The position numbers and the translations under genes are program-made. DNA of 57,344 nucleotides from an uncultured Bacteroidia bacterium (GTDB taxonomy: Bacteria > Bacteroidota > Bacteroidia > Bacteroidales > F082). The notes beneath the pieces were generated by a model, which saw only the letters and a list, made by a program, of their open reading frames with translations, was not told the DNA's origin and made no database searches. Of the stretch, positions 6,619-21,445 are shown piece by piece. Numbering within the stretch: the first letter of the stretch is position 1; every line of letters begins with the position of its first letter. Where the stretch lies: positions 1 through 57,344 of the forward strand of contig CACXQV010000011.1 of NCBI GenBank assembly GCA_902769875.1, given 5' to 3'.

Positions 6619-6619
6619 T

Positions 6620-7327: not shown

Positions 7328-7396
7328 ATAGGAGTTGGTTTGTTGTTTGTTGTTGAAGTGTTTGTTTGGGTTTGGGAGGGATTGTGATCCACCATG

Positions 7397-7852
7397 TCAG
7401 TGGTTCAGTTCGGCTGCAATGGCCGAGCGCTCGTCGAGCAGGCGGTTGATTTCCTCGTCGGAGAGGTTGCCTGCACGCAGTTGGTCGTCGATGGCGGCCA
7501 AATGGGCTTCGAGGTTCTCCGTCGTTCCGGGTATGTCGGTCAGTTGCTTTTCCTTGTTGACGGGCGGCTCTTGCGGCTTGGCGGTCGGGTTGACGACTTG
7601 CGGATTGCCGTTGGTGAAATCGCTCAGTTGTCCCATGACCATACCTACCATTTGTTTGGTGAATGGATCCAGCTTGTAGATTTCCACTTTCATGTCGTCT
7701 TTCAGTTCGTCGAAGTCTTCGAGAAACATTTTCAGCTGTTCCTTCTGCTCTTCGTTGATGCCAGGGATGGAGTCAAGGTCTTGGCTCTCCATCATTTTCT
7801 TGAACATGTTCAAGAAGCTGTCGAGGTTATTGTTGAGGTTGTTGTCTTCCAT
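7397..7852 (-). CDS. Hypothetical acidic helical cytoplasmic protein
   Basis: I do not recognise a family. From MEDNNL at 7852 the product has 151 residues and no signal peptide. The N-terminal half (about 1-70) is acidic, amphipathic helix with repeated FLNMFKK and MFLEDFDEL elements. A Pro/Thr linker follows (about 85-100), then a helical hairpin (about 105-150) with NLSDEEINRLLDERSAI. An upstream extension to 7945 would run through the intergenic region and lacks coding character. A weak TTACTTTGC lies upstream on the reverse strand. Confidence 0.6.
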   Translation of the reverse strand: MEDNNLNNNLDSFLNMFKKMMESQDLDSIPGINEEQKEQLKMFLEDFDELKDDMKVEIYKLDPFTKQMVGMVMGQLSDFTNGNPQVVNPTAKPQEPPVNKEKQLTDIPGTTENLEAHLAAIDDQLRAGNLSDEEINRLLDERSAIAAELNH

Positions 7853-7953
7853 ATCTTTTTGTATTCCGCGTGCAAAGTAACGCTTTTTTCGTGGATTGAT
7901 TGCCTCAAATTGACATTTTTTTCCGATAATTGCATTTTCAAACACATTCTATT

Positions 7954-8754
7954 ATGGATTTCAACACGATAAAAGTGCAGTTGGGCGAGAGCGTGGCTTG
8001 GGTCGGCCTCGACCGCCCAGAGGTGCGTAACGCCCTGAATGCCGAACTGATACGCGAGCTGACCGAGGTCTTTGACTGGTTGGATAAGCGCGACGACATC
8101 CGCGTTGTCGTCCTCAAAGGCAACGGCAAGGCGTTTTGTGCCGGTGCCGACCTCAATTATATGAAAGAGATGACCCAATTCAGCCACAACCAAAACATCG
8201 CCGATGCCGAAAAGCTGTCGAAGCTGTTTCAGACGATGCATTTCTGCAACAAGGCCATCATCGTCGAGGTGTATGGAGCCTGTGTTGGCGGAGCCAACGG
8301 CATTGTGGCTGCCGCCGACATCGTGATTGCCGAGCGCGAGACCAAGTTCGCCTTTTCGGAGGTGCGTTTGGGGCTCACTCCCGCCACCATTTCACCGTTT
8401 GTCGTGAACCGCATTGGGAGCACCCACGCCAAAGAGCTGATGCTCACGGGTCGGCGTTTCAGTGCTGCCGAAGCCAAGGAGTTCGGTCTGGTGAATGTCG
8501 TTGTCGACGAGGCTGAAATGCTTTCCGCCGAGCGTGAATACATCGACCATTTCCTTCACGCCTCGCCCGATGCCATCGCCGAGTGCAAAAACCTGATCCG
8601 TATGGTCACAGGCACCGATGACCGTTTCAATCCCGTTTTCCATCAAACCTCGCTCCTCATCGCTAATCAGCGCATTTCCAAGGCCGGTCAAGAAGGAATG
8701 GCGGCGTTTTTTGAGAAGCGGAAACCGAGTTGGGACAAGTTTTTTCAAAATTGA
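7954..8754 (+). CDS. Enoyl-CoA hydratase/isomerase family protein, methylglutaconyl-CoA hydratase-like
   Basis: The 266-residue crotonase-fold protein begins at MDFNTIKV. It has the oxyanion-hole region GKAFCAGADLNYMKEM (about 62-77) and GACVGGANGIVAAADI (about 110-125), followed by FAFSEVRLGLTPATISPFV with the catalytic-region Glu. The GADLNYMK and EVRLGLTPATISPFV segments resemble methylglutaconyl-CoA hydratases of leucine breakdown, but no other pathway gene is nearby, so the substrate is uncertain. The C-terminus QEGMAAFFEKRKPSW has a second, diverged version directly after the neighbouring ATPase gene (10017-10079). Confidence 0.85.
   Translation: MDFNTIKVQLGESVAWVGLDRPEVRNALNAELIRELTEVFDWLDKRDDIRVVVLKGNGKAFCAGADLNYMKEMTQFSHNQNIADAEKLSKLFQTMHFCNKAIIVEVYGACVGGANGIVAAADIVIAERETKFAFSEVRLGLTPATISPFVVNRIGSTHAKELMLTGRRFSAAEAKEFGLVNVVVDEAEMLSAEREYIDHFLHASPDAIAECKNLIRMVTGTDDRFNPVFHQTSLLIANQRISKAGQEGMAAFFEKRKPSWDKFFQN
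8686..8726. repeat. Left copy of the direct repeat flanking ATPase gene 1
   Basis: These 41 bases encode the hydratase C-terminus QEGMAAFFEKRKP and match 10020-10060 at about 36 of 41 positions by eye. The two copies bracket the ATPase gene at 8844-10016. Most differences leave the encoded residues alike. Confidence 0.85.
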
Positions 8755-8764
8755 CATAAAAAAG

Positions 8765-8816
8765 AATCAATTTTATCAAAAAATTGATTTTTATTGGTTG
8801 CAATTTTGTAATTTTG
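8765..8816 (+). promoter_or_regulatory. Hairpin plus -7 box upstream of ATPase gene 1
   Basis: An inverted repeat AATCAATTTT-ATCAA-AAAATTGATT spans 8765-8789. TAATTTTG (8809-8816), followed by CGG, matches the -7 box and lies 28 bases before the ATG. The hairpin could be the terminator of the hydratase gene or an operator. The same order of hairpin then -7 box is seen before the other two ATPase genes and abiEi. Confidence 0.55.
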
Positions 8817-8843
8817 CGGTCGAAACGATAAGGCAATGATGCT

Positions 8844-10016
8844 ATGGAAAGATTAATGCAACGCTATCAGGCCCAATTGGACAGGACAAAAACCGACTTT
8901 GTTCGCTATCTTCACGATGAAATCCGATGGGAAGCACGGCTTAACGCCATCCTTGGCGCAAGGGGTGTAGGAAAAACCACTTTGATGTTCCAACACATTT
9001 TGCTCAGCGGCGAGCGCGGCACCTCTCTCGTGGTGTTTGCCGACGACATCTATTTCTCAAAGCACACCTTGCTCGACATGGCCGACACATTCTACAAGAA
9101 CGGAGGCAAGCATCTTTATATTGATGAGGTACACAAGTACAAGCATTGGTCAACCGAGATAAAGAACATCTACGACCAACTTCCTGACTTGCAAATCGTT
9201 TACACAGGCTCGTCGATTCTCGACTTGGAGAAAGGCGGTGCCGACTTGTCGCGCCGACAATTGAAAAACTACATGCACGGGATGTCGTTTCGTGAATGGT
9301 TGCAGATGACAAAAGGCATAGTGGTGCAAAAGTACACACTTGATGATATTCTTTCGGCAAAGGTTGTTTTCCCTTATGCCAAACACCGGCCAATTCCTTT
9401 GTTCAAGGAGTATCTTAGAGGAGGTTTTTTCCCATTTTGCTGCGAGGAAGATTACTTTGAACGCCTGAATGCCGTTGTTGAGCAAACGCTTGAAACCGAC
9501 ATTCCCCAATTTGCAGGTCTCAGTGTCGGCGTGATGCACAAACTCAAGCAATTGATGCAAATCATTTCGCAAATATCTCCTTTCAAGCCCAATTACAGCG
9601 ACCTTGCCCGCGACATTTCCGTGGCTCGCAACGACTTGAAGGACTATCTTTATTATATGGAAAAGTCGGGCATGATACAAAGCCTGCCGTCACCTGCTTT
9701 TGGCATGACACGCTTGGCCAAAGTGGAGAAGATTTATTTGGACAACACCAATTTGATGTATGCGCTCATAGGCACGCCGCCCGATGTGGGCAACTTGCGC
9801 GAAACCTTCTTTTTCAACCAAATGCGAGTTCGCAACACGGTGACAGCCTCCGAGGTTTCGGACTTTTTGGTTGATGGTCATACCTTTGAAGTGGGAGGCC
9901 ACAAGAAAGGCCGTCGCCAGATTGTGGAAGTCCCCGACAGTTATGTGGTAAAGGATGATATTGAGTATGCAACCGCAGGCATTATTCCCCTTTGGATGTT
10001 CGGGTTGAATTACTAA
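8844..10016 (+). CDS. AAA-type ATP-binding protein (AAA_14-like), ATPase 1
   Basis: The 390-residue protein has a Walker A GARGVGKTT (38-46), a Walker B LYIDEV (91-96) and a sensor-like YTGSSI. The C-terminal part has a winged-helix-like stretch (about 230-300), then DFLVDGHTFEVGGHKKG (about 335-355). That motif resembles the degenerate nuclease-fold motif of AAA/DUF4143-type proteins, with Glu present but the usual ExK Lys missing. The family is widespread in Bacteroidota and archaea and its function is poorly known. The stop codon directly abuts a remnant of a hydratase 3' end, so the gene sits between two versions of that end. Confidence 0.85.
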   Translation: MERLMQRYQAQLDRTKTDFVRYLHDEIRWEARLNAILGARGVGKTTLMFQHILLSGERGTSLVVFADDIYFSKHTLLDMADTFYKNGGKHLYIDEVHKYKHWSTEIKNIYDQLPDLQIVYTGSSILDLEKGGADLSRRQLKNYMHGMSFREWLQMTKGIVVQKYTLDDILSAKVVFPYAKHRPIPLFKEYLRGGFFPFCCEEDYFERLNAVVEQTLETDIPQFAGLSVGVMHKLKQLMQIISQISPFKPNYSDLARDISVARNDLKDYLYYMEKSGMIQSLPSPAFGMTRLAKVEKIYLDNTNLMYALIGTPPDVGNLRETFFFNQMRVRNTVTASEVSDFLVDGHTFEVGGHKKGRRQIVEVPDSYVVKDDIEYATAGIIPLWMFGLNY

Positions 10017-10079
10017 GTCTGTCAGGAAGGAAAGGCAGCGTTTTTCGAGAAGCGGAAACCAGCGTGGGATTTGCTTTAA
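10017..10079 (+). pseudogene. Remnant of an enoyl-CoA hydratase 3' end
   Basis: Directly after the ATPase stop, in the same frame, these bases translate to VCQEGKAAFFEKRKPAWDLL and a TAA at 10077-10079. This matches the hydratase C-terminus (QEGMAAFFEKRKPSWD then KFFQN) at 14 of the first 16 positions from QEG and then diverges, as two related genes would. It has no start of its own. It is best read as the displaced original 3' end, or as an incoming one, of the hydratase gene at 7954-8754. Confidence 0.8.
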
Positions 10080-10129
10080 AACTGCTAAACAGGCCAAAAT
10101 TTTCGAAGTTTAGCAGGTTTGAAGTAAAA
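10073..10129. repeat. Hairpin-bearing direct repeat, left copy, ATPase gene 2
   Basis: These 57 bases match 11602-11658 with about five differences. They contain the inverted repeat CTGCTAAAC (10082-10090) and GTTTAGCAG (10108-10116) around a 17-base loop that includes AAAATTTT. The copy ends 31 bases before the ATPase start and overlaps the stop codon of the hydratase remnant. Confidence 0.9.
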
Positions 10130-10135
10130 AATGGC

Positions 10136-10143
10136 TATCTTTG
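10136..10143 (+). promoter_or_regulatory. -7 box of ATPase gene 2
   Basis: TATCTTTG followed by CGG matches TAnnTTTG and lies 17 bases before the ATG at 10161. It falls inside a possible upstream extension of the ORF to 10131, which argues for the start at 10161 (MLIGRDREKK). It lies 19 bases after the hairpin. Confidence 0.65.
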
Positions 10144-10160
10144 CGGCAAAATTCAACGCA

Positions 10161-11579
10161 ATGCTGATAGGAAGAGACAGGGAAAAAAAGGAGCTGCTTG
10201 AGGCTTTTGAGTCGGAGTATTCCCAATTTGCAGCCGTGTATGGTCGCAGAAGGGTAGGAAAGACTTTCTTGATACGCGAGACCTTTAGCTACAAGTTCAC
10301 CTTCGAACATTCCGGGGTGGCCAATGGCAACAACAGGAAGCAGTTGCGGGCTTTCCGCGATTCGCTCGTTGAGGCGGGTATGGAGAAAATGCCCGTTCCA
10401 GCCAATTGGATGGATGCTTTCGGGTTGCTGAGGCAGTTTATCAAACAGTCTTCGGATGCTAAGAAGGTCATTTTCATTGACGAAATCCCGTGGATGGACA
10501 CTCCACGTTCCGATTTTCTTTCGGCTTTGGAATATTTTTGGAACGCTTTCGCGTCGGCGCGAAAAGATGTGCTGCTCATCATTTGCGGCAGTGCCACTTC
10601 TTGGATAATTAATAAAGTGCTGAAAAACCACGGCGGTTTGCACAATCGCGTGACTTGCAGGATTCCTTTGCAGCCGTTCACGCTTTGCGAATGTGAGCAA
10701 TACGTGAAAAGCCGCAACATCGGTTTGTCGCGATACGACCTTTTGGAACTCTATATGGTGTTTGGCGGCGTGCCTTTCTATTGGTCGTTGCTTGAACGCG
10801 GCGAAAGCGTAGCGCAAAGCATTGATAGAATGGTGTTTTCGTCCAGCGGAAAATTGCACGATGAGTTTTACGAACTTTATGATTCGTTGTTTAAAACGCC
10901 GGAACAATATATCAGCGTCGTCACGGCATTGGGCGAGGCTGGGGCAGGCTTGAATCGGGAGGAATTGGTGGCTCGTTGTGGCCTTGACGGCAATGGCAAG
11001 ACGACGCGGATTCTCAACGATTTGCAAGAGTGCGGATTCATCAAGAAGATTCCCACTTTTGGCTTGAAGAACAGGGCAACGTACAAACTGATAGACAATT
11101 ACACCTTGTTTTATATGAAGTTCGTCAAGGAAAACGAGTCCAACGACGAGCGGTTTTGGTCGCACAGTTACCTTTCGTCCGTCCGTACTTCGTGGGTGGG
11201 GTTGGCTTTCGAGAGGGTGTGTTTCCAGCACATTCCGCAGATAAAGAAGGCACTCGGCATCAGCGGCGTGGTGACCAACGTCTATGCTTGGCGCATTGGC
11301 CCGACTGCCGACGGCGAGGCTGGAGCGCAAATTGATATGCTCATCGACCGTGCCGACAATATGGTGAACCTCTGCGAAATGAAGTTCTCGAAAAATGAAT
11401 ACACGGTGACCTCGGATGATGCCGACAGCCTGCACCACAAGGCCAAACGTTTTGCGGAAAGTGTCGGCAAGGGCAAATCCATCAGCCTGACTATGATTAC
11501 CGTGAATGGCATCGCCCATACAGGACATTGGGGCGACATCCACAACACAATCACTGCGGAGGATTTGTTTGAGAGATAA
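10161..11579 (+). CDS. AAA ATPase with C-terminal nuclease-like domain (ATPase_2/DUF234 type), ATPase 2
   Basis: The 472-residue protein starts MLIGRDREKK, the usual beginning of this family. Walker A is GRRRVGKT (28-35), Walker B is VIFIDE (103-108) and a sensor-like CGSATSWI follows. A winged-helix region lies at about 240-310. The C-terminal domain has GAQIDMLIDR and then CEMKFSK about 15 residues later, the D...ExK pattern of PD-(D/E)XK nuclease folds (D about 391, E about 406, K about 408). It is closely related along its length to ATPase 3 at 19183-20601. It is bracketed by a hairpin repeat not found elsewhere in the window. The biological role is unknown. Confidence 0.88.
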   Translation: MLIGRDREKKELLEAFESEYSQFAAVYGRRRVGKTFLIRETFSYKFTFEHSGVANGNNRKQLRAFRDSLVEAGMEKMPVPANWMDAFGLLRQFIKQSSDAKKVIFIDEIPWMDTPRSDFLSALEYFWNAFASARKDVLLIICGSATSWIINKVLKNHGGLHNRVTCRIPLQPFTLCECEQYVKSRNIGLSRYDLLELYMVFGGVPFYWSLLERGESVAQSIDRMVFSSSGKLHDEFYELYDSLFKTPEQYISVVTALGEAGAGLNREELVARCGLDGNGKTTRILNDLQECGFIKKIPTFGLKNRATYKLIDNYTLFYMKFVKENESNDERFWSHSYLSSVRTSWVGLAFERVCFQHIPQIKKALGISGVVTNVYAWRIGPTADGEAGAQIDMLIDRADNMVNLCEMKFSKNEYTVTSDDADSLHHKAKRFAESVGKGKSISLTMITVNGIAHTGHWGDIHNTITAEDLFER

Positions 11580-11601
11580 AGCGTATTTTGGAAGTAAAAA
11601 T

Positions 11602-11658
11602 GCTCTAAAACTGCTAAACAGGCCAAAATTTTTGAAGTTTAGCAGGTTTGGAGCGAAA
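11602..11658. repeat. Hairpin-bearing direct repeat, right copy, ATPase gene 2
   Basis: This is the second copy of 10073-10129, at an offset of 1529 bases, and starts 23 bases after the ATPase stop. Both hairpin arms (CTGCTAAAC and GTTTAGCAG) are intact; the changes lie in the loop and outer flanks. It may also act as a terminator. The 83 bases to 11741 hold nothing else recognised. Confidence 0.9.
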
Positions 11659-11741
11659 TTGTCCTTTCGCAAGGAACAAAAGAGCATTAATCACTCCAAA
11701 TATTCCACTTCATACATCATAGTGGAAGCCTCCTCACCTTG

Positions 11742-12614
11742 TTATTTTAGCTTTACTAAATTAAAGAGGTATTCTTCAAGTAATTCTAATCGAATGTCTT
11801 TTTTTAGAATCCTTTTATCCTTGTCCAAAAGATAAAGACTCGATGATTCCAAAAAATAATAGAGTTTTTCCTTGTTGATTTTCCCATCTCTGTCAAAGCC
11901 ATTCAACCATTTTTGAGGATAACTGGTATTACTCCATAATTCATACTCATCGTAGGGACATACTGAAAACACAGTTAATTTGCCATTATCAACCATCTTA
12001 TTGATAGTCTCTGAATTGGACAACTTTTCTTTGTTTTCAACACAAATGCTGCAATTCGGATTGTGGAAAAACAAGAGAACATAGTCTGCTTTAATATTAT
12101 ACAACTCAACGGGATTGTTGTTTCTGTCCACAACAATAAAATCGGTTGCCGCATCTCCAATTCTATTTGTGCTGATTATTTCCTTTTCCAACAAAAAAAC
12201 GCTTTTCTTGGATTCTGGAATGCGTTCATTAGCGAGAACAAATTCTGCGACAGCCAAATATCGCTCGTAATCGCAATAATAGGAATCAGGATTCATCAAA
12301 TACATCCTATAGGTGTCGATATACAGAGAAAAAATTTGGTTGTTTCTTGACGCATTATTTAAAGTTTGGAAAATCGACTCGTTTGAAACGGGATATGGTA
12401 CATCTTTGAGGTAGGCGAAATATTCAAGCATAATATCGCCTTCGATAAAAATGTATGGGTCTTCAAAATCATAATTGTCCCAATAATGAAGTATGAAAAA
12501 CTCCAACCTTTCATTCTCGTCTTCAATAGTGTCAGGAATATGAGGATGCACAAAACTTTGTGAAGCCTCAGAAAGCGAAGCGAGCAGGAGAAGCAGTATT
12601 ATTGTCTTTCTCAT
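11742..12614 (-). CDS. Secreted DUF5106/thioredoxin-like protein
   Basis: From MRKTIILLL at 12614 the product has 290 residues. A signal peptide (about 1-18) is followed by a region with FFILHYWDNYDFEDPYIF that resembles DUF5106. A thioredoxin-like C-terminal domain has NPNCSICVENK, with a CSIC redox pair at about residue 195. The likely place is the periplasm, in disulfide exchange or as a tethered thioredoxin-like protein. The start codon overlaps the stop of the upstream gene by one base (TGATG), showing translational coupling. An ORF extension to 12677 is rejected because it overlaps that gene. Confidence 0.75.
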   Translation of the reverse strand: MRKTIILLLLLASLSEASQSFVHPHIPDTIEDENERLEFFILHYWDNYDFEDPYIFIEGDIMLEYFAYLKDVPYPVSNESIFQTLNNASRNNQIFSLYIDTYRMYLMNPDSYYCDYERYLAVAEFVLANERIPESKKSVFLLEKEIISTNRIGDAATDFIVVDRNNNPVELYNIKADYVLLFFHNPNCSICVENKEKLSNSETINKMVDNGKLTVFSVCPYDEYELWSNTSYPQKWLNGFDRDGKINKEKLYYFLESSSLYLLDKDKRILKKDIRLELLEEYLFNLVKLK

Positions 12615-13390
12615 CAACGCATATATGTGTAGCCCACAATTATAGCACTTTTTGTCACCTTGTTGTATTGATAACAAACATCTAAACAGCTTTTTCCCAA
12701 GATGGGAATGCTCATACCTACTGAAACAGGTATCGTAAAAGAGGATTCTCCATTACTTGATGCATAGGACAGGCCCATTCCTACAAACGGATTGACGGCT
12801 TTACCTTTCAGAACATAGCCTCTGGTGTCAACACCAATGGAACCATTGAAAAAATCCTCATTTATATTATCTGATATACTTACGATTTTATTATATCCAA
12901 TCAAGCCATTCAAGGCCAAATCCCACCTGTCATTTAGGAGGTAGCAGCCAATCCTACCATAGCCAGAAAAGGTGATTGTTGTTGGCGAAGATTTTGGGAC
13001 AGCCATTCCAAAAGCACCGCTAATATTAAAAAACCATGGGTGTTGGAGGCTTCTACTTTTACTTGGCGTATGGACTGGAGTCAACGTTGACGAGGGCTTG
13101 TCCATGTTCCATGAATCTACCAATTTCACCGAGCCATTTGTCTTTTGCCACAACTCGCCGCTATGACCATTAATTACATAAAAGTGTTTGACATTGAGTT
13201 CCTTTGTTTCTCTTTCAATCAAGGTGTTTTTTCCAATTTCAGATAGCTGTCCGTATGTTAATGGATTCACATATAAGTATACAATTTCCTTGTGTTCCAT
13301 AATCTGAACTACATAATTGTCCGTTGTTTGCGATCTCGCGCTTGTTAGTGCCGCGACAAACAAACACATTATCAATATTGCCTTTCTCAT
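12614..13390 (-). CDS. Secreted protein with C-terminal outer-membrane barrel-like domain
   Basis: This 258-residue protein has a signal peptide ending SARSQ (about residue 21). After about 100 residues without a recognised domain there is a barrel-like region (about 115-258) with alternating strands and GYGRIGCY, GMGLSYAS and VGYTYMR, typical of small outer-membrane barrels. The family is not recognised. It is the second gene from the 3' end of an AT-rich minus-strand operon of secreted proteins. Confidence 0.68.
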   Translation of the reverse strand: MRKAILIMCLFVAALTSARSQTTDNYVVQIMEHKEIVYLYVNPLTYGQLSEIGKNTLIERETKELNVKHFYVINGHSGELWQKTNGSVKLVDSWNMDKPSSTLTPVHTPSKSRSLQHPWFFNISGAFGMAVPKSSPTTITFSGYGRIGCYLLNDRWDLALNGLIGYNKIVSISDNINEDFFNGSIGVDTRGYVLKGKAVNPFVGMGLSYASSNGESSFTIPVSVGMSIPILGKSCLDVCYQYNKVTKSAIIVGYTYMR

Positions 13391-13410
13391 ATCATTTTGT
13401 TTTAGTTGGA

Positions 13411-14598
13411 TTAAAAATAGCGGGTGAAGCCAACCGAAAGGGTCGTCCTCATTTCCTTATTCCTGAAATAGTAATACACGTTATACAAAATGTCAAAGGA
13501 AGAATTCCCTCCCGAAATAGGAATTGACCATCCCACTCTTGCTCCAAGTCCAACATCAAATCCGTTGGAGTATTGGGTAGAGATAGTGGCACCAATCAAC
13601 TCGTATTTGTCTATTTTTAAATTTATCGACACATCTCCCACCAATGTCGACACATCGTCAAATCTTGAATACCCCAAATTCACGGAAAAGTTGGTAGTAG
13701 GACTTGTGTAAATGCCATACATAACATTAAATGCCAATGATTTATTGACATAAGACAGGCCTGTGTAAATGAAACTTTTTCTTGTGTCTGCTTGCACACT
13801 AACATCTTTTGAATTCGCCAACAGAATTGATGAGTTATGTTCTATGGCATTTTCAGACTTTAGCTTTTCCAAATGTTTGTCATAAGCTCCAAGAGGATCT
13901 ATCTTAAGTTTTTCCTTCCCCATCTTTTCAATACCTTTTTGAAGATATTCTATCGCTGCCTTTTTAAACCCAAGATTCTCCAACAAAGCGGATAGCCCAA
14001 TGCAAGGCAAATATTGGTCAGGGTAGGTCTCGGTGAGTTCCAAGAACAGTATCATTGATTGAATGAATTGATGATGATTGGCCAATTTGTTAGCTCTTTG
14101 TAATGCCGTACCCAAATCATCTATATTGATGGTTGCTCGACATTTGTATTTCTCTGCAAACGACAAATACTGTCCAGAAATCCAACTCGGCGCAAATGAT
14201 TTCTTATCGTATGAGAAACTCCAGAATAAATGTGCTATGGAATCGTACTCCATAAGCCTAAAGACTTGTGATGTGTAGAATAACACGTCTTTATCAGCTT
14301 GGCCACTTGCAAGGATCTTGTCAAGATTCATGATGGCACCATCATAACAACCAGTCAAGGCGAGAGCATACGCATATTCCGCACTCACCGTTTTGTTGTC
14401 ATTGTTTTTTACCAGAGCTGCATATTTCACGATGGCATCAGGAAACTGTTCATTACACACATCCCTTCTTGCCTCATTAAGCTGCTTTTGCAATGATGAA
14501 TCCGTGTAAACATATTGAGCTGTGCTTGTGAGAGGTTTAAGCAATAACAACGCACACCCTACAAACAATACGATTCGTTTAGTGTTTTTCATCTTCAT
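13411..14598 (-). CDS. Secreted TPR-like protein with C-terminal barrel-like domain
   Basis: The 395-residue protein has a signal peptide ending STAQ (about 28). A helical repeat region (about 40-235) looks like TPR/Sel1-type repeats (FPDAIVKYAALVKNN, KKAAIEYLQKGIEKMG). The C-terminal region (about 270-395) alternates strands and ends VGFTRYF, like an outer-membrane barrel. The two-part layout matches the neighbouring gene and suggests a periplasmic helical scaffold tethered to the outer membrane. Two ATGs (14598 and 14592) are possible; either overlaps the upstream gene's end by 14-20 bases. Confidence 0.65.
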   Translation of the reverse strand: MKMKNTKRIVLFVGCALLLLKPLTSTAQYVYTDSSLQKQLNEARRDVCNEQFPDAIVKYAALVKNNDNKTVSAEYAYALALTGCYDGAIMNLDKILASGQADKDVLFYTSQVFRLMEYDSIAHLFWSFSYDKKSFAPSWISGQYLSFAEKYKCRATINIDDLGTALQRANKLANHHQFIQSMILFLELTETYPDQYLPCIGLSALLENLGFKKAAIEYLQKGIEKMGKEKLKIDPLGAYDKHLEKLKSENAIEHNSSILLANSKDVSVQADTRKSFIYTGLSYVNKSLAFNVMYGIYTSPTTNFSVNLGYSRFDDVSTLVGDVSINLKIDKYELIGATISTQYSNGFDVGLGARVGWSIPISGGNSSFDILYNVYYYFRNKEMRTTLSVGFTRYF

Positions 14599-15445
14599 TC
14601 TTGTTTACTTCGTTCACAACCTCATCCAAAAGAGTCTGATATTGGTTGGCATGGTCAATTACTGAAAGCAAGCCGTTTCTAAACAACAGATAAAGACGGT
14701 TATCGACCAACATCACTTGTTTAATGTCTCCCAGCAAGAAAGGATATGATTTGCCAGGAAGCCCCAAATAATAGCAGGCTTTTTCCGTGGAAAAGAAAGC
14801 CCCCTCAGAAAAGAAATCGATAGATTGCACTCGTGAATCGGCAACCTCGACCAAAGTTTGGATTTCGTCTGATACAAAATATATCATTTCGCCAGAAGAA
14901 AGAAAAGCTTCCCGGCCCGATCCCACAAAACAATCAATATGAAACGGCACTGCAAACAGTTTTGTGAACTTTTCAGTCGCCAAGTCGAAAAGATACGCGA
15001 AACTTGAATCCTGTTCGTGTTTGATGTAGTAGAAAGAGTCGTTATTTGCAGGATATATTTTGAACTTCTCTTCTTTTCGTTCAAAGAGTTTTTCCACTTT
15101 CTTGCCATCGTAGCTTCTGACAACATTGCCTTGTCTCAACAATAGCATGTTGTCTATGACAAAAGACTCGTCGGGGTTCTGGATTTCGATGGGCAAACCA
15201 AAAACCACAGGTGTTTTCACCTCATCATCGGACAGCAATAGCATAGCACCATCAGCCATCAAGAAAGGGTATTTGAAATTGTTTCCATAAACCAGTTGCG
15301 AATACTTTGTTGTTCTCGATGGCTGCGAAATGACCATATACGAGCAACTGTCGGGGATGAAGCCTTTATAGTTGCTTTGTGAAACAGCCTGCATTTGCAT
15401 CATGACGCAGCCAAGAATAGCCAAGAATAATTCTTTCAGTTTCAT
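14579..15445 (-). CDS. Secreted protein, beta-propeller-like, unknown function
   Basis: I do not recognise a family. The 288-residue product has a signal peptide (MKLKELFLAILG to VSQS, about 23 residues). It is then strand-rich with repeating short units such as VIDNMLLLRQGNVVRSYDGK, FYYIKHEQ and MIYFVSDEIQTLVEVADS, suggesting a beta-propeller. It overlaps the next gene and follows the previous one by 6 bases, so it belongs to the AT-rich operon. A periplasmic or surface binding role is only a guess. Confidence 0.6.
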   Translation of the reverse strand: MKLKELFLAILGCVMMQMQAVSQSNYKGFIPDSCSYMVISQPSRTTKYSQLVYGNNFKYPFLMADGAMLLLSDDEVKTPVVFGLPIEIQNPDESFVIDNMLLLRQGNVVRSYDGKKVEKLFERKEEKFKIYPANNDSFYYIKHEQDSSFAYLFDLATEKFTKLFAVPFHIDCFVGSGREAFLSSGEMIYFVSDEIQTLVEVADSRVQSIDFFSEGAFFSTEKACYYLGLPGKSYPFLLGDIKQVMLVDNRLYLLFRNGLLSVIDHANQYQTLLDEVVNEVNKNEDEKH

Positions 15446-15451
15446 AGCATT

Positions 15452-16834
15452 TCACTTTTTATTTATTCGTTTTTCTACCATTTCCACTACATCATGGTTA
15501 AAGCGCGAAGCACCTTGATACAAAGATTTCTCATACGCACCAAACTCACCAGTCCTTTCCGCATTTAATGCACCTTTCAATACAGTATCAGAAAAACTAC
15601 TAACAGATTTATTTAAGGGTTTACCGACATCGGAAAGAATATCTGTTAAGTTGGTGTATTTATTGAATAAGGTATTAATACTATTTTCCGCCTTAGTTAT
15701 ATATGGATCTATTGCTATCCCCACGGCATCCGTGGCATAAGTTTTAATCTTGTCCACAAATCCAGGGAGGTCTGCGTTCATAATAATGACAGCCATATCA
15801 CGAACTTCTTTAACGCCCCCCTCTAAATCGTTTAATGTTGAATTTAGGTTACTGAGTTGTTCGCTCCCAGGGATGGACACTCCAAATACATCTTTTATAT
15901 ATCTAGTACCATCTTCAGCACTCTGAAAAGTCCAAGCCCCGACTTGGTATGAAGCTATTATAGGATTATCAAGTAACGACTCTTTTTCATTTGTATTATC
16001 TACTACATTCTCTGGCACTAGTGTGTTTTTGGAAACACTCTGGTTCTTCGAAATTGAATCCATCTTGTGTTGGATCTTTTTCTCTCTCAAGTCGAGTCGA
16101 TGTTGGATTTCTTTTTGGCTTTTTTCCAAACTTTCGTCCCGTTGTTGGTTCATTATTCTTTCAGGGTCGATGGGCACAATCAATTCGTCGTCATCAGTGA
16201 CGTAGTTGTTTTCTTGGTCGAGGTAAACTTTGTCAATTCTGGGATAAAAAGTATACTCCCCGTCGCCTTCCTTTTTTTTGTCCCTTGCCAATACGGTGAC
16301 TTGGTTTTTGTATTGCTCATCATACAGATGGTCACCCGTCTTGATTCCTCGTCCTCCAACTGCATCATTGAAACTTTTGCTAAGGGCCGCCAGTTTGATT
16401 TCCAAATCCTCTCCCATGCTTGAAACCACATATGCTTCATTAGGGGCAAAATATGGCTCTCCAATGGCTGCGCTGCTGTATAGGCTTGCATTACTTTGGG
16501 ATCCTCCAATTCCATTTCCACTCACTCCACCGCCGCCAATGTTGCCACCGATGCAAGGTGAAGTCGTTATTCTAATATAACAGCCGCTATTTGAATAATT
16601 CGTAGTTGCAGCAGATCTTGCTGATTCACACTCTTCTATAGTGCCGAATGTTTTAGCGGCAAGATCGGTGGCCAACTGCTTTCGTACTTCCACTTCAAGT
16701 AAGGCCGAAAATCCTTGAAGATTGTCGCCCACACAATTATCATTATAACTCATGCTTGTAATGGAAAAATGCCATTGCGCATTAGCGGTAACGATACTGA
16801 TGATAAAAACAGTTAGTAATAGCAATTTTTTCAT
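15452..16834 (-). CDS. Secreted protein with coiled-coil segment, unknown function
   Basis: From ATG at 16834 (MKKLLLLTVF) the product has 460 residues; the longer frame to 16840 would need a TTG start. A signal peptide ends TANAQ (about 20). Residues about 25-115 carry four Cys and a Gly-rich stretch. Residues about 225-265 are charged coiled coil (SLEKSQKEIQHRLDLREKK). The C-terminal third is helical with no clear family. It is the first gene of the AT-rich run down to 11742. Confidence 0.6.
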   Translation of the reverse strand: MKKLLLLTVFIISIVTANAQWHFSITSMSYNDNCVGDNLQGFSALLEVEVRKQLATDLAAKTFGTIEECESARSAATTNYSNSGCYIRITTSPCIGGNIGGGGVSGNGIGGSQSNASLYSSAAIGEPYFAPNEAYVVSSMGEDLEIKLAALSKSFNDAVGGRGIKTGDHLYDEQYKNQVTVLARDKKKEGDGEYTFYPRIDKVYLDQENNYVTDDDELIVPIDPERIMNQQRDESLEKSQKEIQHRLDLREKKIQHKMDSISKNQSVSKNTLVPENVVDNTNEKESLLDNPIIASYQVGAWTFQSAEDGTRYIKDVFGVSIPGSEQLSNLNSTLNDLEGGVKEVRDMAVIIMNADLPGFVDKIKTYATDAVGIAIDPYITKAENSINTLFNKYTNLTDILSDVGKPLNKSVSSFSDTVLKGALNAERTGEFGAYEKSLYQGASRFNHDVVEMVEKRINKK

Positions 16835-16885
16835 TTTCAAATGCCCTAATTTGTCTCGGGCGCAACTTTTTTGTTGTTTTCAATC

Positions 16886-16920
16886 ACAGCAAAGCCCTCA
16901 ATGTTTGAGAGCTTTGCTGT
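16886..16920 (-). terminator. Hairpin between the small lipoprotein gene and the secreted-protein operon
   Basis: Arms ACAGCAAAGC-CTCAA and TTGAG-GCTTTGCTGT pair over 16 positions with one mismatch around a 3-base loop. The hairpin lies 28 bases after the stop of the lipoprotein gene. No strong T-run follows on the minus strand, so it may attenuate transcription or act at the RNA level. Confidence 0.55.
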
Positions 16921-16947
16921 TTGTAGGCAAACTGTGTTTTTGAGAAT

Positions 16948-17181
16948 TTACTGCTCGACACACTCCATGGTTTGAGTGATAGTCATGCCTTCAACCGTGG
17001 TCGTCGTGGTTGTGTTCAAATCACTACAGCTACCTTTCTCAATGGTAGCAGTAGTGTTAGTTACAGTTGGTCCAACATAGGGAATGTTTTGGGTCATTTT
17101 GCAGTTGCAGGTTTTTGCCTTACTGCATCCCATCATGACAAGCAGGGTTGTTGCAACTAAAAGAATAAGTACTTTTTTCAT
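16948..17181 (-). CDS. Small lipoprotein, unknown function
   Basis: The 77-residue product has a lipoprotein signal MKKVLILLV to LVMMGC (lipidated Cys about 19). The mature part has a Cys-x-Cys (TCNCK), two further Cys and Thr-rich runs. No family is recognised. The gene stands alone between hairpins. The gap up to 17413 has only the hairpin at 17362-17390. Confidence 0.7.
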   Translation of the reverse strand: MKKVLILLVATTLLVMMGCSKAKTCNCKMTQNIPYVGPTVTNTTATIEKGSCSDLNTTTTTTVEGMTITQTMECVEQ

Positions 17182-17361
17182 TTTGATGATTTTTAGGTTA
17201 ATCTTATGGCGAAATAAAGTCAGCGCTTGCCTAATCTCGCCAATCGAAAAGATGATTTATTGTGGTAATATTTGAAGGTCTATGCGCTGTTTATAATAGA
17301 CTTTTTTTCTGCTTTCTTGCCCAGTTATATCCCGTCAGGCGCATCGGTTATTAGATTGTAA

Positions 17362-17390
17362 AGGCCGCATTTTTTTTGGTTGTGCGGCCT
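17362..17390. other. Hairpin downstream of the 17414-18259 lipoprotein gene
   Basis: AGGCCGCA (17362-17369) pairs with TGCGGCCT (17383-17390) across a T-rich loop, 24 bases after the stop. It is probably a terminator-like structure, although the following minus-strand bases have no clear T-run. Confidence 0.5.
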
Positions 17391-17413
17391 CTACGATTAG
17401 AAAAAGTTACTGT

Positions 17414-18259
17414 TTATTTCAATTTTCCGTTTACGGTCAGATGCCTTAATCCGTTGTCGCCATAGGTTTCGGAATAGGAATTGCTGATGAGGAGCAAAAG
17501 GTTTTCTCCATCTTCCTTTTCGTTCATCACGGCAATCACCTCATCGTATGTTGCTGCTTCTTTGGCAGCAAAGATGTTGTATGTGCTTATTTTGTTGTTT
17601 TTATAGTTTTTAGGATTCTTTTTGATATCCTTAAACAAAGCGTCTTTGCCATCGTAAGTGTCAATCTCATCCCATTTCGATTGGTCAAAGAGATAAAGCG
17701 AAATCGAATCGTCGACTGGCAACAAACTAATGGTGTCAAGAGCTATGGCCACGCTATCAACAACCTTCGAGTCAAGCCATAGGAGGCCGTAATCGCCGAA
17801 ACCCGAAACAGAATCCAACCCGATTTGTTGCCAGACGAAAGCCTCTTCCATATCTTCCTGAACATGGATGTTGATGAAGGTTTCGCTCCAATTGTTGGAG
17901 GCATCGAATACGCGGCCTGCAATCCTCCAATCGCCTAATTCGATGAAGGTGTATTCTCCTTCTGCACGAAAACTGTCCTCGTTGTTGAGAAAATAAGTGG
18001 TGTCGTACACCCAATCTTGTCCGGGTTTTGCGACGAACACTTGGAATTTGACCAGTTTTGAGTTCGTTGCTGCGTTTGGAAATGCGTTAAACCCGAACTT
18101 TACTGTGGTTCCAATGAACAAGTGGTTTTCTCCTGTGGTAAATCCTTCTTCGGTCAGCATTGAAACCGAAGGGTTCTGATTATCCATTTTCTTGTTGCAT
18201 CCAATAAAAGAAGCACCGATTAGAAGACAAATGATGGCATTTCTGTAAATGTGTTTCAT
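17414..18259 (-). CDS. Lipoprotein of unknown function
   Basis: The 281-residue product has a lipoprotein signal with SFIGC (Cys about 21). Residues about 30-130 look like an immunoglobulin-like or PKD-type beta-sandwich (VKFQVFVAKPG, AGRVFDASNNWSETFINIHV). The rest, about 135-281, is mixed and unrecognised. It is probably anchored in the envelope. It begins the AT-rich block from its upstream side; 18260-18438 upstream shows nothing else. Confidence 0.65.
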   Translation of the reverse strand: MKHIYRNAIICLLIGASFIGCNKKMDNQNPSVSMLTEEGFTTGENHLFIGTTVKFGFNAFPNAATNSKLVKFQVFVAKPGQDWVYDTTYFLNNEDSFRAEGEYTFIELGDWRIAGRVFDASNNWSETFINIHVQEDMEEAFVWQQIGLDSVSGFGDYGLLWLDSKVVDSVAIALDTISLLPVDDSISLYLFDQSKWDEIDTYDGKDALFKDIKKNPKNYKNNKISTYNIFAAKEAATYDEVIAVMNEKEDGENLLLLISNSYSETYGDNGLRHLTVNGKLK

Positions 18260-18438
18260 AATGCGTTGAAATTTTGTTTGTTATTTGATACTATTGTTGC
18301 TATTATTCCTAATTGCAAAGAAAAGACTAATCGTCTAAACAAGCCTTGGTGCCTTGTGGTTGTTATTACCGCAATTTGTTGTTAGTTTTACCGCAATCAT
18401 AGAAGCCGATGTGTCTGGACATCGTAAAATGCCGTTTT

Positions 18439-18684
18439 TCAAATCCCGTTTCCGACGTTGGAAGCGTCGACTCTTATATGAAGCTGGGTTGATGCCTCGC
18501 CAAAAAAATCATGATGGAGCAACCGGCTGGCTCGCAGTACGAAGTCTGTGTCGAGATGCGGACGTGCAAGCAACTTGTACATATTGCTGCGGTCGCTGCC
18601 CATTTCCTTGGCAAACCATGCCACGCTGTAGCGTTGATTGCGCAATTCGCGGAGAATCATATTGCCGAAATGGATGTCGCTCAT
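18439..18684 (-). CDS. Small helix-turn-helix DNA-binding protein
   Basis: From MSDIHFGNMIL the product has 81 residues. A helix-turn-helix of the Cro/XRE-like Bacteroidota type is visible: LRELRNQRYSVAWFAKEMG, SDRSNMYKLL, then DTDFVLRASRLLHHDFF. It is probably a repressor of a nearby gene; the ATPase cassette and the small membrane ORF are the nearest candidates. Longer frames to 18870 or 18910 have no coding character before this Met. Confidence 0.75.
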   Translation of the reverse strand: MSDIHFGNMILRELRNQRYSVAWFAKEMGSDRSNMYKLLARPHLDTDFVLRASRLLHHDFFGEASTQLHIRVDASNVGNGI

Positions 18685-18803
18685 AGTCAAGCCGTCCGTC
18701 TTTCTTTGTGTGGCAGACTCCCCGATGCCCTGGTTTTGTTGTTGTGTTTCGTTGGAACATAAAGAAAAAAGCGCGGGAATCCTGTCTTTGCTTATCCCGC
18801 CAT

Positions 18804-18914
18804 TCAGGCTCTCGCATTGCCTTTCCGCCAAAGATAAGCAATACCGAAGCCCACGCCCACGATGACACACAATATATAAATAAAGGTGTCGTCGGTGTCA
18901 TGGACGCCAACCAT
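18804..18914 (-). CDS. Possible 36-residue single-pass membrane protein
   Basis: Reading the minus strand from the ATG at 18912-18914 gives 36 codons and a TGA. The start is MVGVHDTDDT, followed by one hydrophobic segment (FIYILCVIVGVGFGIAYLW) and a basic tail RKGNARA. The frame stays open about 24 codons upstream without an ATG, so the true start may be earlier. A TAATTTTG box lies 120 bases upstream, and the HTH gene follows 119 bases downstream. No family is recognised. Confidence 0.42.
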   Translation of the reverse strand: MVGVHDTDDTFIYILCVIVGVGFGIAYLWRKGNARA

Positions 18915-19033
18915 TGCCTTATCGTGTGGCGGAATGAATTTGCGAGATTCGAATGGCCGCAGATAAAACGTCAGTCTAACGTCTTCTCAATATGTTTGTC
19001 GCCTCCAAAATGGATTTCGGATAAACGACTTTG

Positions 19034-19041
19034 CAAAATTA
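19034..19041 (-). promoter_or_regulatory. -7 box upstream of the small membrane ORF and HTH gene
   Basis: The minus strand reads TAATTTTG then CAAAG, a match to TAnnTTTG. It would produce a leader of about 110 bases before the 36-codon ORF. Confidence 0.5.
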
Positions 19042-19113
19042 CATTGTTTTTGAAATTCAGCCTCGTTTTTGGACAAAAAAAGTCTTTTTTCTGCTTTTCA
19101 GAAATCGAAATAT

Positions 19114-19168
19114 GCCTTCAACTCTGCGGAATCTATCAAAAAAAAGCACTTTCCGCAGAGTTGAAGGC
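19114..19168. repeat. Hairpin direct repeat, downstream copy, ATPase gene 3
   Basis: Perfect 18-base arms GCCTTCAACTCTGCGGAA (19114-19131) and TTCCGCAGAGTTGAAGGC (19151-19168) enclose a 19-base loop with eight A. The 50-base core 19116-19165 matches 20641-20690 with a single difference. It starts 15 bases after the minus-strand stop at 19183 and could also terminate transcription. Confidence 0.95.
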
Positions 19169-19182
19169 ACTTTTTTTGGGGA

Positions 19183-20601
19183 TTATGTCTTGAATAAATC
19201 TTCTAAAGTGATGATATTCTGGAAGATGCTTGAATATTCGTTTTTCTTCAGGCCTTTGGCCGAAATCAGCACCAAATGGATGGCCTTGTCGGAGCGGATT
19301 TCTTCGGATAGTCGGGCAATTTTCGTCTCCAAATTCGATTCTTCGTCGGCGTTTACCGTGAAAGGCTCTTTCGTGAACTTGATTTCGCAAAGGTTGATGA
19401 CTCCATCGGTGCGGTCGATGACCAAATCGACTTGCGCGCCGGTTTCGGTCGTTTTGCTCGGAACGCTGCGCCACGAATAGAAAGCGGTGGAGATGCCCGA
19501 AATGCCCAAGGCACGAAGGATTTGCTCCTCGTGGGCGAAACACACCCGCTCGAAGGCCAAGCCGCACCAATTGTAATATAGCGGCGCGTTTTGGTTCTCC
19601 GACCAGAAATGTTTGTCGGAGCGTATGTTTTCAGCGATGAATCTGAAATAGAACAAAGTGTATGGGTCAATCAGTTGAAACACAGCGTTTTTCTTCTTGA
19701 ATCCGATGCTGTTGTATTTCCTGATGAAACCGCAATATTCGAGTTCGGCGAGCACTTTGGTGAGTTTGCCGTTATCGTCCATGCCTTCCGCAACCAATTC
19801 CTCTCGGGTCATCCCGGCCTTCTTTTTGCCGAGGATGGTGATGGCTTGGATGTAGGCTTCGGGATTCTTGAACAGCGAGGCGTAAAGCGCGTCAAATTCG
19901 TTGTAAAGTTCTCCTTGCGGGTTGAAAATCAGGTCGTCGATGTTCTGTGCAAGGCTTTTCCGCCTGTCCAAAAACGACCAGTAATAGGGAATGCCGCCCA
20001 TAACCATATAAGCCTCAACGATTTGCCTACGGCTCATACCCAACTTGAAGGCTTTGGCGTAACGCTCACATTCCGAAAGGGTGAACGGCTGGATGAGGAT
20101 TTTTGCAGTCACCCGTCCGCGCAGCCCGCCGTGGTCTTTGATGAGTTTGTTGATGATCCACGAAGTGGCTGAACCGCAAACGATTAGAAGGATGTCTTTC
20201 CGCCCCGAAGCCCAACCGTTCCAAAAGTGTTCCAAAGCGGGAATGAAGCCTGAATGCAGGGTGTCCATCCAAGGCATTTCGTCTATGAAGATGACTTTTT
20301 TCTTCTCATCAGAAGCCTTGATGAGGTCTTTGAGCATGTCGAAGGCATCGAGCCAGTTTTTGGGGAGTTTCGGTTTGGCCATCCCCGCGTCGTGGAGCGA
20401 CGATTTCCATGCCGCCAACTGCCCTTTCATGTCGGTGCGGGCCACGCCTGCGTGCTCGAAGGTGAATTTGTAGCCAAAAGTTTCCCTGACGAAGAAGGTC
20501 TTGCCTACGCGCCGCCGACCGTAAACCGTCACAAATTGCGAATATTCAGACTGATACGCCCGAATCATCTTTTCTTTTTCGTGGGCTCTCCCAATGATCA
20601 T
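19183..20601 (-). CDS. AAA ATPase with C-terminal nuclease-like domain (ATPase_2/DUF234 type), ATPase 3
   Basis: The 472-residue product starts MIIGRAHEKEK. Walker A is GRRRVGKT (28-35), Walker B is VIFIDEMPW (about 104-112) and a CGSATSWI sensor-like stretch follows. The C-terminal domain has GAQVDLVIDR followed by CEIKFTK, the D...ExK pattern of PD-(D/E)XK folds. It shares most motifs and its exact length with ATPase 2 but is clearly diverged. The start at 20601 is chosen over 20664 because a TATTTTTG box lies between them. The gene sits between two nearly identical hairpin repeats. Its function is unknown. Confidence 0.88.
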   Translation of the reverse strand: MIIGRAHEKEKMIRAYQSEYSQFVTVYGRRRVGKTFFVRETFGYKFTFEHAGVARTDMKGQLAAWKSSLHDAGMAKPKLPKNWLDAFDMLKDLIKASDEKKKVIFIDEMPWMDTLHSGFIPALEHFWNGWASGRKDILLIVCGSATSWIINKLIKDHGGLRGRVTAKILIQPFTLSECERYAKAFKLGMSRRQIVEAYMVMGGIPYYWSFLDRRKSLAQNIDDLIFNPQGELYNEFDALYASLFKNPEAYIQAITILGKKKAGMTREELVAEGMDDNGKLTKVLAELEYCGFIRKYNSIGFKKKNAVFQLIDPYTLFYFRFIAENIRSDKHFWSENQNAPLYYNWCGLAFERVCFAHEEQILRALGISGISTAFYSWRSVPSKTTETGAQVDLVIDRTDGVINLCEIKFTKEPFTVNADEESNLETKIARLSEEIRSDKAIHLVLISAKGLKKNEYSSIFQNIITLEDLFKT

Positions 20602-20621
20602 CTTGTATGGATTTGATGCCG

Positions 20622-20629
20622 CAAAAATA
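20622..20629 (-). promoter_or_regulatory. -7 box of ATPase gene 3
   Basis: The minus strand reads TATTTTTG followed by CGG, 20 bases before the start at 20601 and 11 bases after the hairpin repeat. This is the same layout as ATPase 2. Confidence 0.62.
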
Positions 20630-20640
20630 GGAAAATAGTG

Positions 20641-20690
20641 CTTCAACTCTGCGGAATCTGTCAAAAAAAAGCACTTTCCGCAGAGTTGAA
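20641..20690. repeat. Hairpin direct repeat, upstream copy, ATPase gene 3
   Basis: This is the second copy of the 50-base core, at an offset of 1525 bases. Arms TTCAACTCTGCGGAA and TTCCGCAGAGTTGAA are intact, and the only difference from the other copy is one A/G in the loop. It lies immediately upstream of the promoter of ATPase gene 3. Confidence 0.95.
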
Positions 20691-20745
20691 TGGGTGTTTT
20701 TGAAAAATCTTTCCCTCAATTTTGGCAGTTTCAAGGGAATTTCCT

Positions 20746-20779: not shown

Positions 20780-21445
20780 ATGAAAAAATTTGCAGTAATC
20801 TTAGCGGGCTGCGGTCGCAAGGACGGCAGCGAAATCAACGAGGCCATCACCCTTTTGCTCTCCATCGAGCAGCATCATTGTGAATACCAGTGCTTTGCGC
20901 CCAATCGCCCTCAAACCGAGGTCATCGACCACCTGACCGATGAGAAAGTGGCCGAGGAGCGCAACATCCTCACCGAGGCCGCACGCTTGGCGCGTAGTCA
21001 GGTGAAGCCCATCGAGGAATACAAGGCCGCCGATTATGATGGTCTGCTGTTCAGCGGCGGTTACGGCGTGGCCAAGAACTTGTGCGATTATGCCTACAAA
21101 GGTGCCGAAATGGAAGTGAAGCCCGATGTGGCCCGTGCCATCGTCGAGACGCGCGAGGCCAACAAACCCATCGGAGGAATGTGCATTTCGCCCGTGATGT
21201 TCGCCAAGCTGTTGCCTGGCGTTTGCGTCACCTTGGGCAACGAGGGCACGCCTGATGCCGACAACATCCGCGCCATGGGTGCCTTCCATGTGCAAACCGA
21301 AAACGGTGATGTGTGTGCCGACAACGAAATGCTGGTCTTCACCACGCCTGCCTATATGCTCAATGCCACCATCAAGGATGTGTACGATGGCGCCTACAAT
21401 TTGGTGGAATCCATCATCGACACATTAGACGGGAAACGCGACTAA
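20780..21445 (+). CDS. elbB: ElbB-type DJ-1/PfpI family glyoxalase-like protein
   Basis: The 221-residue product starts MKKFAVILAGCGRKDGSEI, the typical ElbB beginning. It has the class I glutaminase-like fold with LLFSGGYGVAKNLCDYA (about 94-110) and GGMCISPVMFAKLL (about 133-146), which carries the nucleophile-elbow Cys. ElbB has glyoxalase activity in E. coli and was once linked to isoprenoid synthesis; the physiological role is unsettled. It is a stand-alone gene. The gap 21446-21684 holds a terminator and nothing else recognised. Confidence 0.9.
   Translation: MKKFAVILAGCGRKDGSEINEAITLLLSIEQHHCEYQCFAPNRPQTEVIDHLTDEKVAEERNILTEAARLARSQVKPIEEYKAADYDGLLFSGGYGVAKNLCDYAYKGAEMEVKPDVARAIVETREANKPIGGMCISPVMFAKLLPGVCVTLGNEGTPDADNIRAMGAFHVQTENGDVCADNEMLVFTTPAYMLNATIKDVYDGAYNLVESIIDTLDGKRD

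Follow-up and report, generated by a model that had tools for sequence, protein, structure and literature searches.

Private palindromes in pairs around PDC-S27-type ATPase genes at a Bacteroidales locus and in related genomes

RAYT transposase genes are bordered by REP palindromes, the proposed recognition sites of the protein, an integron cassette comprises a gene and a folded attC site as its minimal unit, and LTR elements have direct terminal repeats and leave solo LTRs behind after loss. The donor site of an IS200/IS605 element is resealed without the hairpin. REPs are high-copy sequences, with more than 100 per genome (excerpt of PMC2817692), and IS200/IS605 elements carry subterminal hairpins near both of their ends (excerpt of PMC6006769).

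The genes considered here belong mainly to PDC-S27, a phage-defence candidate in which an AAA+ ATPase is fused to PD-(D/E)XK, with the architecture given in the excerpt of PMC12988326. That excerpt describes single genes found by guilt-by-embedding, with a candidate function only, and together with the excerpt of PMC13356809 it presents PDC-S01 and PDC-S27 as very common, largely untested candidates. The descriptions of PDC-S27 contained in these two excerpts say nothing about flanking palindromes, and in the open-licence literature we found no publication on palindromes around these genes, or on this layout. The protein families, PDC-S27 and PDC-S01-like, are already known.

The hydratase-elbB interval and its three ATPase genes

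The DNA analysed, hereafter the window, is a stretch of 57,344 nucleotides from an uncultured Bacteroidia bacterium of the order Bacteroidales. Its source is contig 11 of a 3.5-Mb draft genome (G000), which is 82.6% complete with 5.7% contamination. With 51 matches to PF01637 and 53 to DUF4143, this genome is rich in both kinds. Between a hydratase gene, ending at 8754, and a gene starting at 20780 that we take to be elbB-like, the window contains three ATPase genes and cargo of low G+C content (Table 1). The cargo is absent between H2 and H3 in two related genomes, G018 and G048; pieces of it recur near PDC-S27 relatives at other loci, namely 17301-18996 in L130 and 18485-19108 in L161. Outside this interval, an ORF on the minus strand (5284-6720), presumably resembling epoxyqueuosine reductase, contains about six copies like SMIASRNQEPSATPINPL, arranged in tandem and in frame.

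Table 1. Features of the hydratase-elbB interval, in coordinates of the window.
Feature	Position	Strand	Remark
Enoyl-CoA hydratase gene (ech), left neighbour; diverged, probably imported version	7957..8754	+	ECH_1 match
Inverted repeat 5' of ATPase 1, without downstream duplicate	8743..8811	.	also 5' of the 92% identical gene in G003
ATPase 1, AAA_14 and DUF4143, PDC-S01-like; without paired-palindrome layout	8844..10016	+	
Second hydratase 3' end; resembles the G018/G048 version more than the full gene does	10010..10069	+	
Palindrome H2, upstream copy	10072..10129	.	one copy at this position in G018 and in G048
TAnnTTTG box (TATCTTTG) of ATPase 2	10136..10143	+	read from the sequence
ATPase 2, PDC-S27: AAA+ ATPase, winged-helix-like middle, PD-(D/E)XK nuclease-like end	10161..11579	+	
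Palindrome H2, downstream copy	11601..11658	.	direct repeat
Cargo separating the two units; ORFs largely on the minus strand, G+C for the most part 0.38-0.42, Pfam matches few	11659..19107	.	
Palindrome H3, downstream copy of ATPase 3	19108..19176	.	direct repeat
ATPase 3, PDC-S27	19183..20601	-	
TAnnTTTG box (TATTTTTG) of ATPase 3	20622..20629	-	read from the sequence
Palindrome H3, upstream copy of ATPase 3	20633..20701	.	single H3 here in G018, G048, G007, G057 and G012
Right neighbour, presumably elbB-like	20780..21445	+	without Pfam match

A first-pass annotation of the window had proposed that each of the three ATPase genes is bracketed by direct repeats as a cassette. For ATPases 2 and 3 the proposal stands, and for ATPase 1, whose repeat is host-gene sequence, it does not. 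ATPase 2 lies between the two copies of a 58-nt direct repeat (H2; 91% identity, spacing 1529), and ATPase 3 between those of a 69-nt direct repeat (H3; 87% identity, spacing 1525). Each repeat includes an inverted repeat. The palindrome word of ATPase 2 is AAACTGCTAAAC and that of ATPase 3 is CTTCAACTCTGCGGAA; that the two repeats differ in sequence, as had been claimed, was confirmed by a repeat search of the window. The placement was likewise as described, with one copy 5' of the promoter and the other after the stop. In G000, the H3 repeat is found at two places only, both flanking ATPase 3. In agreement with the annotation, which had seen no transposase or integrase nearby, no integrase, recombinase or transposase gene was matched among the 13 proteins scanned in the interval 7.9-22.8 kb.

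ATPases 2 and 3 match the PADLOC model of PDC-S27 with E-values of 1.4e-196 and 9.7e-194, over its full length (residues 2-470 of 472 on positions 4-473 of 474). The Walker A motif, D107-E108, D392, E406 and K408 are invariant in an alignment of 36 relatives, and the nuclease signature consists of D392 and E406-x-K408. DUF234 was matched in 12 of these 36, and the middle region gives matches to winged-helix families in single members. With 54% identity between the two proteins, and with the signature residues invariant, the annotation was right to regard them as relatives with a PD-(D/E)XK-like end. For the proteins themselves, 'undescribed' is wrong: PADLOC lists them as PDC-S27 and PDC-S01-like.

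ATPase 1 is set apart from the other two. It matches the PADLOC model of PDC-S01 in part (E 3.6e-24, residues 31-333 of 390), and the 60-nt repeat around it (8676-8735 and 10010-10069, 78% identity, spacing 1334) is the 3' end of the hydratase gene. The full hydratase gene has about 79% nucleotide identity to G018 and G048, and the elbB side 95-96%. The hydratase 3' end after ATPase 1 is G018/G048-like and runs into H2, which holds the stop of that gene. A gene in G003 that is 92% identical to ATPase 1 can be aligned from position 8740 of the window to the stop. We read these sequences as a hydratase gene and ATPase 1 that probably came together from a relative, their junction being with the old 3' end. 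ATPase 1 was rejected as a palindrome cassette, because the hydratase pieces on its two sides are two versions of the hydratase; its repeat stems from a different event. Elsewhere in G000, two DUF4143 genes (L071 and L074) lie between duplications of 159 and 222-223 bp, apparently of neighbouring coding sequence.

Palindrome pairs among PDC-S27-type genes

The upstream and downstream flanks of each gene were compared by local alignment, and a score of 40 was used as the threshold for a pair. In stretches of the window's genome, the flanks of 98 ATPase genes were taken, and 97 were testable. A pair was found around 22 of 47 ATPase_2 matches, 20 of them in the usual position, and around 12 of 50 DUF4143 genes, 6 of them in the usual position; that is, pairs are rarer around the latter. 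The pair at L023 in this first set was an artefact of an internal stop in the gene; with the homologous start, in the later set, its flanks score 81.

The other set consisted of 97 PDC-S27-type genes, all full-length, drawn from seven genomes within the genus; those in genomes other than G000 were chosen by similarity to ATPase 3 from among the matches listed. Among these matches, 71 of the 97 genes have flanking direct repeats and 26 are without a pair; mispaired flanks, which draw on the same gene family and include near-identical orthologues in different genomes, reached the threshold in 34 of 2000 cases. Clustering below 62% identity left a pair in 35 of 49 clusters, each represented by its best-scoring member. 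In four long stretches of G048 (800 kb), 10 of 15 PDC-S27-type genes have a pair; of the remaining ORFs with at least 350 codons, 10 in 260 do, and these ten appear to be a mixed set of tandem-like repeats, one AAA-like protein, and others. Among 77 more distant relatives from named genomes (3 of 80 loci were left out, as their flanks were too short), 22 have a repeat pair, with a control of 6 in 2000. About 14 of these 22 resemble this layout by eye, mainly in Bacteroidales; one of them is G048 again, and another is the isolate Prevotella sp. tc2-28 (L297, score 53). Thus, the search for flanking pairs around related genes that the annotation had proposed recovers them in both the close and the more distant set. 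Pairs are common in PDC-S27-type genes of the genus, and the idea that gene and paired hairpins make up a unit is supported for ATPases 2 and 3; the layout also occurs beyond the window.

The repeats are about 50-110 bp long. Their inverted-repeat arms typically measure 12-21 bases, with a spacer of 3-23 bases, and a run of A or T is frequent. The inverted repeat beats all 20 shuffles in 63 of the 76 flanks of 38 nonredundant genes (below 80% identity), and a few of the 71 paired genes are without a clear one. Each palindrome is private to its gene: the median score is 100 between the two copies of one gene, versus 16 between the words of different genes. In the clade of ATPase 3, the core GCGGAA is kept, and the outer arm diverges in parallel on the two sides. 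Two convergent ATPase genes in L148 of G022, at 6048-7475 (+) and 7637-8938 (-), have one common palindrome word. There is also a dispersed, G+C-rich palindrome (GACAGCCCTACA ... TGTAGGGCTGTC), found at C12:224739-224845 and C7:3924-4028 in G048 and also in L154, which sometimes adjoins PDC-S27 genes and differs from the private palindromes.

Palindromes that come after stop codons, in genomes that are mostly MAGs, might be ordinary transcription terminators or artefacts of assembly. However, other long ORFs are rarely paired (the 10 in 260 given above), and the pair is also present in separately assembled genomes. The palindrome words were not seen behind many unrelated genes, either in G000, in the G048 sample, or with the H3 pattern in 60 genomes. 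For ATPases 2 and 3 these readings were rejected, because the same word also stands upstream and because the isolate, Prevotella sp. tc2-28, has the pair; overall we regard them as very unlikely.

A promoter-type box, TAnnTTTG, is present in 36 of the 38 nonredundant genes, and in 26 of those 36 it lies -14 to +25 bases from the inner edge of the palindrome; as a control, the region past the downstream repeat has the box in 11 of 38. The upstream palindrome, whose inner edge the box usually adjoins, is therefore well placed for an operator. This position favors the main rival to a mobile unit, namely an autoregulated defence gene whose palindromes would be operator-type sites only, whose turnover would be due to host homologous recombination, and whose protein would not move itself. 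That PADLOC lists the family as a candidate for defence points the same way, and we grant this explanation a substantial but minor share of the probability. Nevertheless, an operator needs no second full copy 3' of the stop, often with two inverted repeats, and the downstream copy changes in step with the upstream one.

To relate the protein to its palindrome, coupling with the middle domain was assessed by three measures. The middle region came first each time, with 2 of 2000, 34 of 1000 and 143 of 2000 permutations, respectively. Among scans with 30-residue windows, none passed family-wise correction. The coupling between palindrome and middle domain is thus suggestive only, and its significance depends on the measure.

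Empty sites, solo palindromes and homology edges

Of the 60 genomes searched, 19 have hydratase and elbB no more than about 12 kb apart. In eight of these 19, the gap between them is 15-20 bases, with no palindrome (G028, G033, G042, G029, G019, G024, G016 and G021), and in two there is a spacer of 73-93 bases of other sequence (G002 and G058). Five have palindromes without an ATPase: G018 and G048 have one H2 and one H3 copy, and G007, G057 and G012 have one H3-like copy each. G003 and G044 have inserts of 4.5-6 kb that lack a PDC-S27 gene, together with one H3-like palindrome; G003 carries the relative of ATPase 1 mentioned above. G000 and G050 have the ATPase 3 gene between two H3 copies. 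In G012 (C123:25870-26726), the hydratase appears in two matches, as if the gene were broken, beside the solo H3.

The H3 core pattern occurs at 18 sites in the 60 genomes, versus 0 for a reversed-pattern control. Ten of these sites are paired around PDC-S27 genes, six are single at hydratase-elbB, and two are elsewhere, one in G037 and one in G012, the latter with a PDC-S27 gene on the same contig. A solo H2 is found in G056 near the relative of ATPase 3. In the G048 sample nearly all long palindrome matches flank an ATPase. Outside hydratase-elbB there are two solo palindromes, one directly after a stop codon (C6:40629-40687) and one at the site of the G022 unit L148, following the 3' end of the same neighbour gene (C12:79315-79361); seven further matches are short (23-38 bases). 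The vacated L130 site in G048 has no palindrome. At hydratase-elbB (for both H2 and H3) and at the L148 site there can be one palindrome when the site is empty and two when it is occupied, but no palindrome is found at eight hydratase-elbB sites and at the L130 site. The annotation had regarded hairpins found widely without an ATPase gene as evidence against a cassette; solo copies are rare. The presence of single copies where the gene is absent was not foreseen by it, and bears on the mechanism.

One way to produce such repeats is a long target-site duplication, in which host sequence is doubled on insertion. This would fit the look of ATPase 1 and of the DUF4143 genes L071 and L074, with their duplications of 159-223 bp. 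The words of PDC-S27 genes, however, are common to homologues in different neighbourhoods, and pre-insertion sites can be without them. For ATPases 2 and 3 this origin is refuted, unless all homologues share a single ancestral site, and we assign it the least weight.

Alternatively, gene and palindrome might have been doubled in tandem and the first gene then deleted, with its palindrome left upstream. In L127 (G024), a C-terminal piece of 58 residues, 98% identical to a member of the set, directly precedes the upstream palindrome; an apparent family C-terminus also precedes the palindromes of L086 and L103, and one tandem pair has a palindrome between its genes (L119/L137). Yet the C-terminal motif was found within 150 bp upstream in only 3 of 97 genes, one of which is a real tandem, a count that is a minimum because the motif recognises only 58 of the 97 true C-termini. 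Few other pieces were detected by tblastn, and no family remnant was found in the 2-kb stretch beside the unit in G050. As a general rule, a duplication scar is already weak, and we judge it improbable.

The edges of homology were compared in 60 gene pairs above 81% identity, from different genomes and with at least one palindrome pair. In 31 of the 60, homology breaks off no more than 16 bases from the outer edge of the upstream repeat; in 16 it does so at the downstream repeat, and in 10 at both. Many of these sharp edges belong to genes that have kept their locus and have other DNA next to the palindrome, and do not mark a relocation; only 7 of the 60 pairs are without any common flank. For an autoregulated defence gene, the solo copies would be chance deletions between 50-bp direct repeats in a busy island. 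In favor of this explanation, the hydratase-elbB hotspot also receives ATPase 1 and cargo of unrelated kinds, and nearly identical genes often keep the same locus, but the coincidence of homology edges with palindrome edges counts against it.

The closest pair with no shared flank is ATPase 2 and L130 of G022, which are 91.5% identical. Their similarity starts at the outer edge of H2 and extends 57 bp beyond the right-hand copy, and a few kb away L130 has pieces of the cargo seen in the window. The relocated DNA may therefore have been larger than the unit.

The two copies of a palindrome can be compared by position, across species, or within one gene. In 35 same-locus pairs above 95% identity, the likeness is 0.922 by position versus 0.873 within the gene; position-specific differences are thus kept, which argues against steady homogenisation. 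In 10 pairs at 80-88% identity, the values are 0.813 and 0.846, respectively, and the match within the gene is higher in seven. It is also higher in six of the seven pairs with no shared flank (three of which involve L028), and lower in one. This fits an occasional renewal of both copies from one, rather than a steady process, but the sample is small and a same-locus pair (L016/L115) behaves in the same way.

A possible single-gene unit and its relation to known elements

We consider the chances to be about even that a PDC-S27 gene and its two palindromes form a single-gene unit, in which the protein recognises its own palindrome, and the palindrome serves both as operator and as boundary of gain and loss. 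Pairing, privacy and solo copies are directly observed; recognition, cutting and mobility are what we infer. Such a unit would measure about 1.6 kb. The winged-helix-like middle of the protein would bind the palindrome, and binding at the upstream copy would repress the gene's own promoter. The ATPase-nuclease, host recombination, or both, would act at the palindromes. Loss of the gene between them would leave a single palindrome, and a gene could enter at a palindrome or at a new site. The palindrome may also act as a self-mark, as the annotation had suggested. Whatever else it does, for example in defence, the unit would amount to a mobile gene that is small, self-addressed and in part selfish. 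The stronger proposal, that PDC-S27 genes make up a class of mobile element of their own, new and consisting of one gene, with the ATPase-nuclease as mobility protein and the private palindrome as operator, excision site and landing site, we put forward tentatively, as a possibility well short of even.

The private palindrome pair provides the first concrete substrate with which binding, cutting and movement by PDC-S27 can be tested. If the unit is mobile, 'defence systems' in gut and rumen genomes should be counted with care, and the wide distribution of this 'defence candidate' would partly reflect its own movement.

Among described systems, the Tn7-like transposons share with these proteins a weak AAA+ similarity, to TnsC (VchTnsC, E 0.0022), which may be just AAA+ ancestry; the best match to a solved structure is the Walker-type ATPase 2qen (E 4e-05), and the units differ in having no TnsB-like transposase. 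Like an integron cassette, a PDC-S27 unit joins a gene to a folded site, but it has two copies of that site per gene and encodes its own protein, with no integrase seen nearby. RAYT genes are alike in that a gene is bordered by palindromes which its protein is proposed to recognise. In contrast to REPs, however, the private palindromes are low-copy (H3 at two places in G000; rare solos in G048), and the PDC-S27 protein is an ATPase-nuclease that gave no match to a tyrosine (Y1)/HUH domain in Pfam scans. With LTR elements the units share direct terminal repeats and solo repeats, but they have no reverse transcriptase, and their repeats are palindromes of about 50-110 bp. Finally, IS200/IS605 elements are similar in their hairpins near both ends; PDC-S27 units are without a TnpA-like domain, and single palindromes stay behind at their sites.
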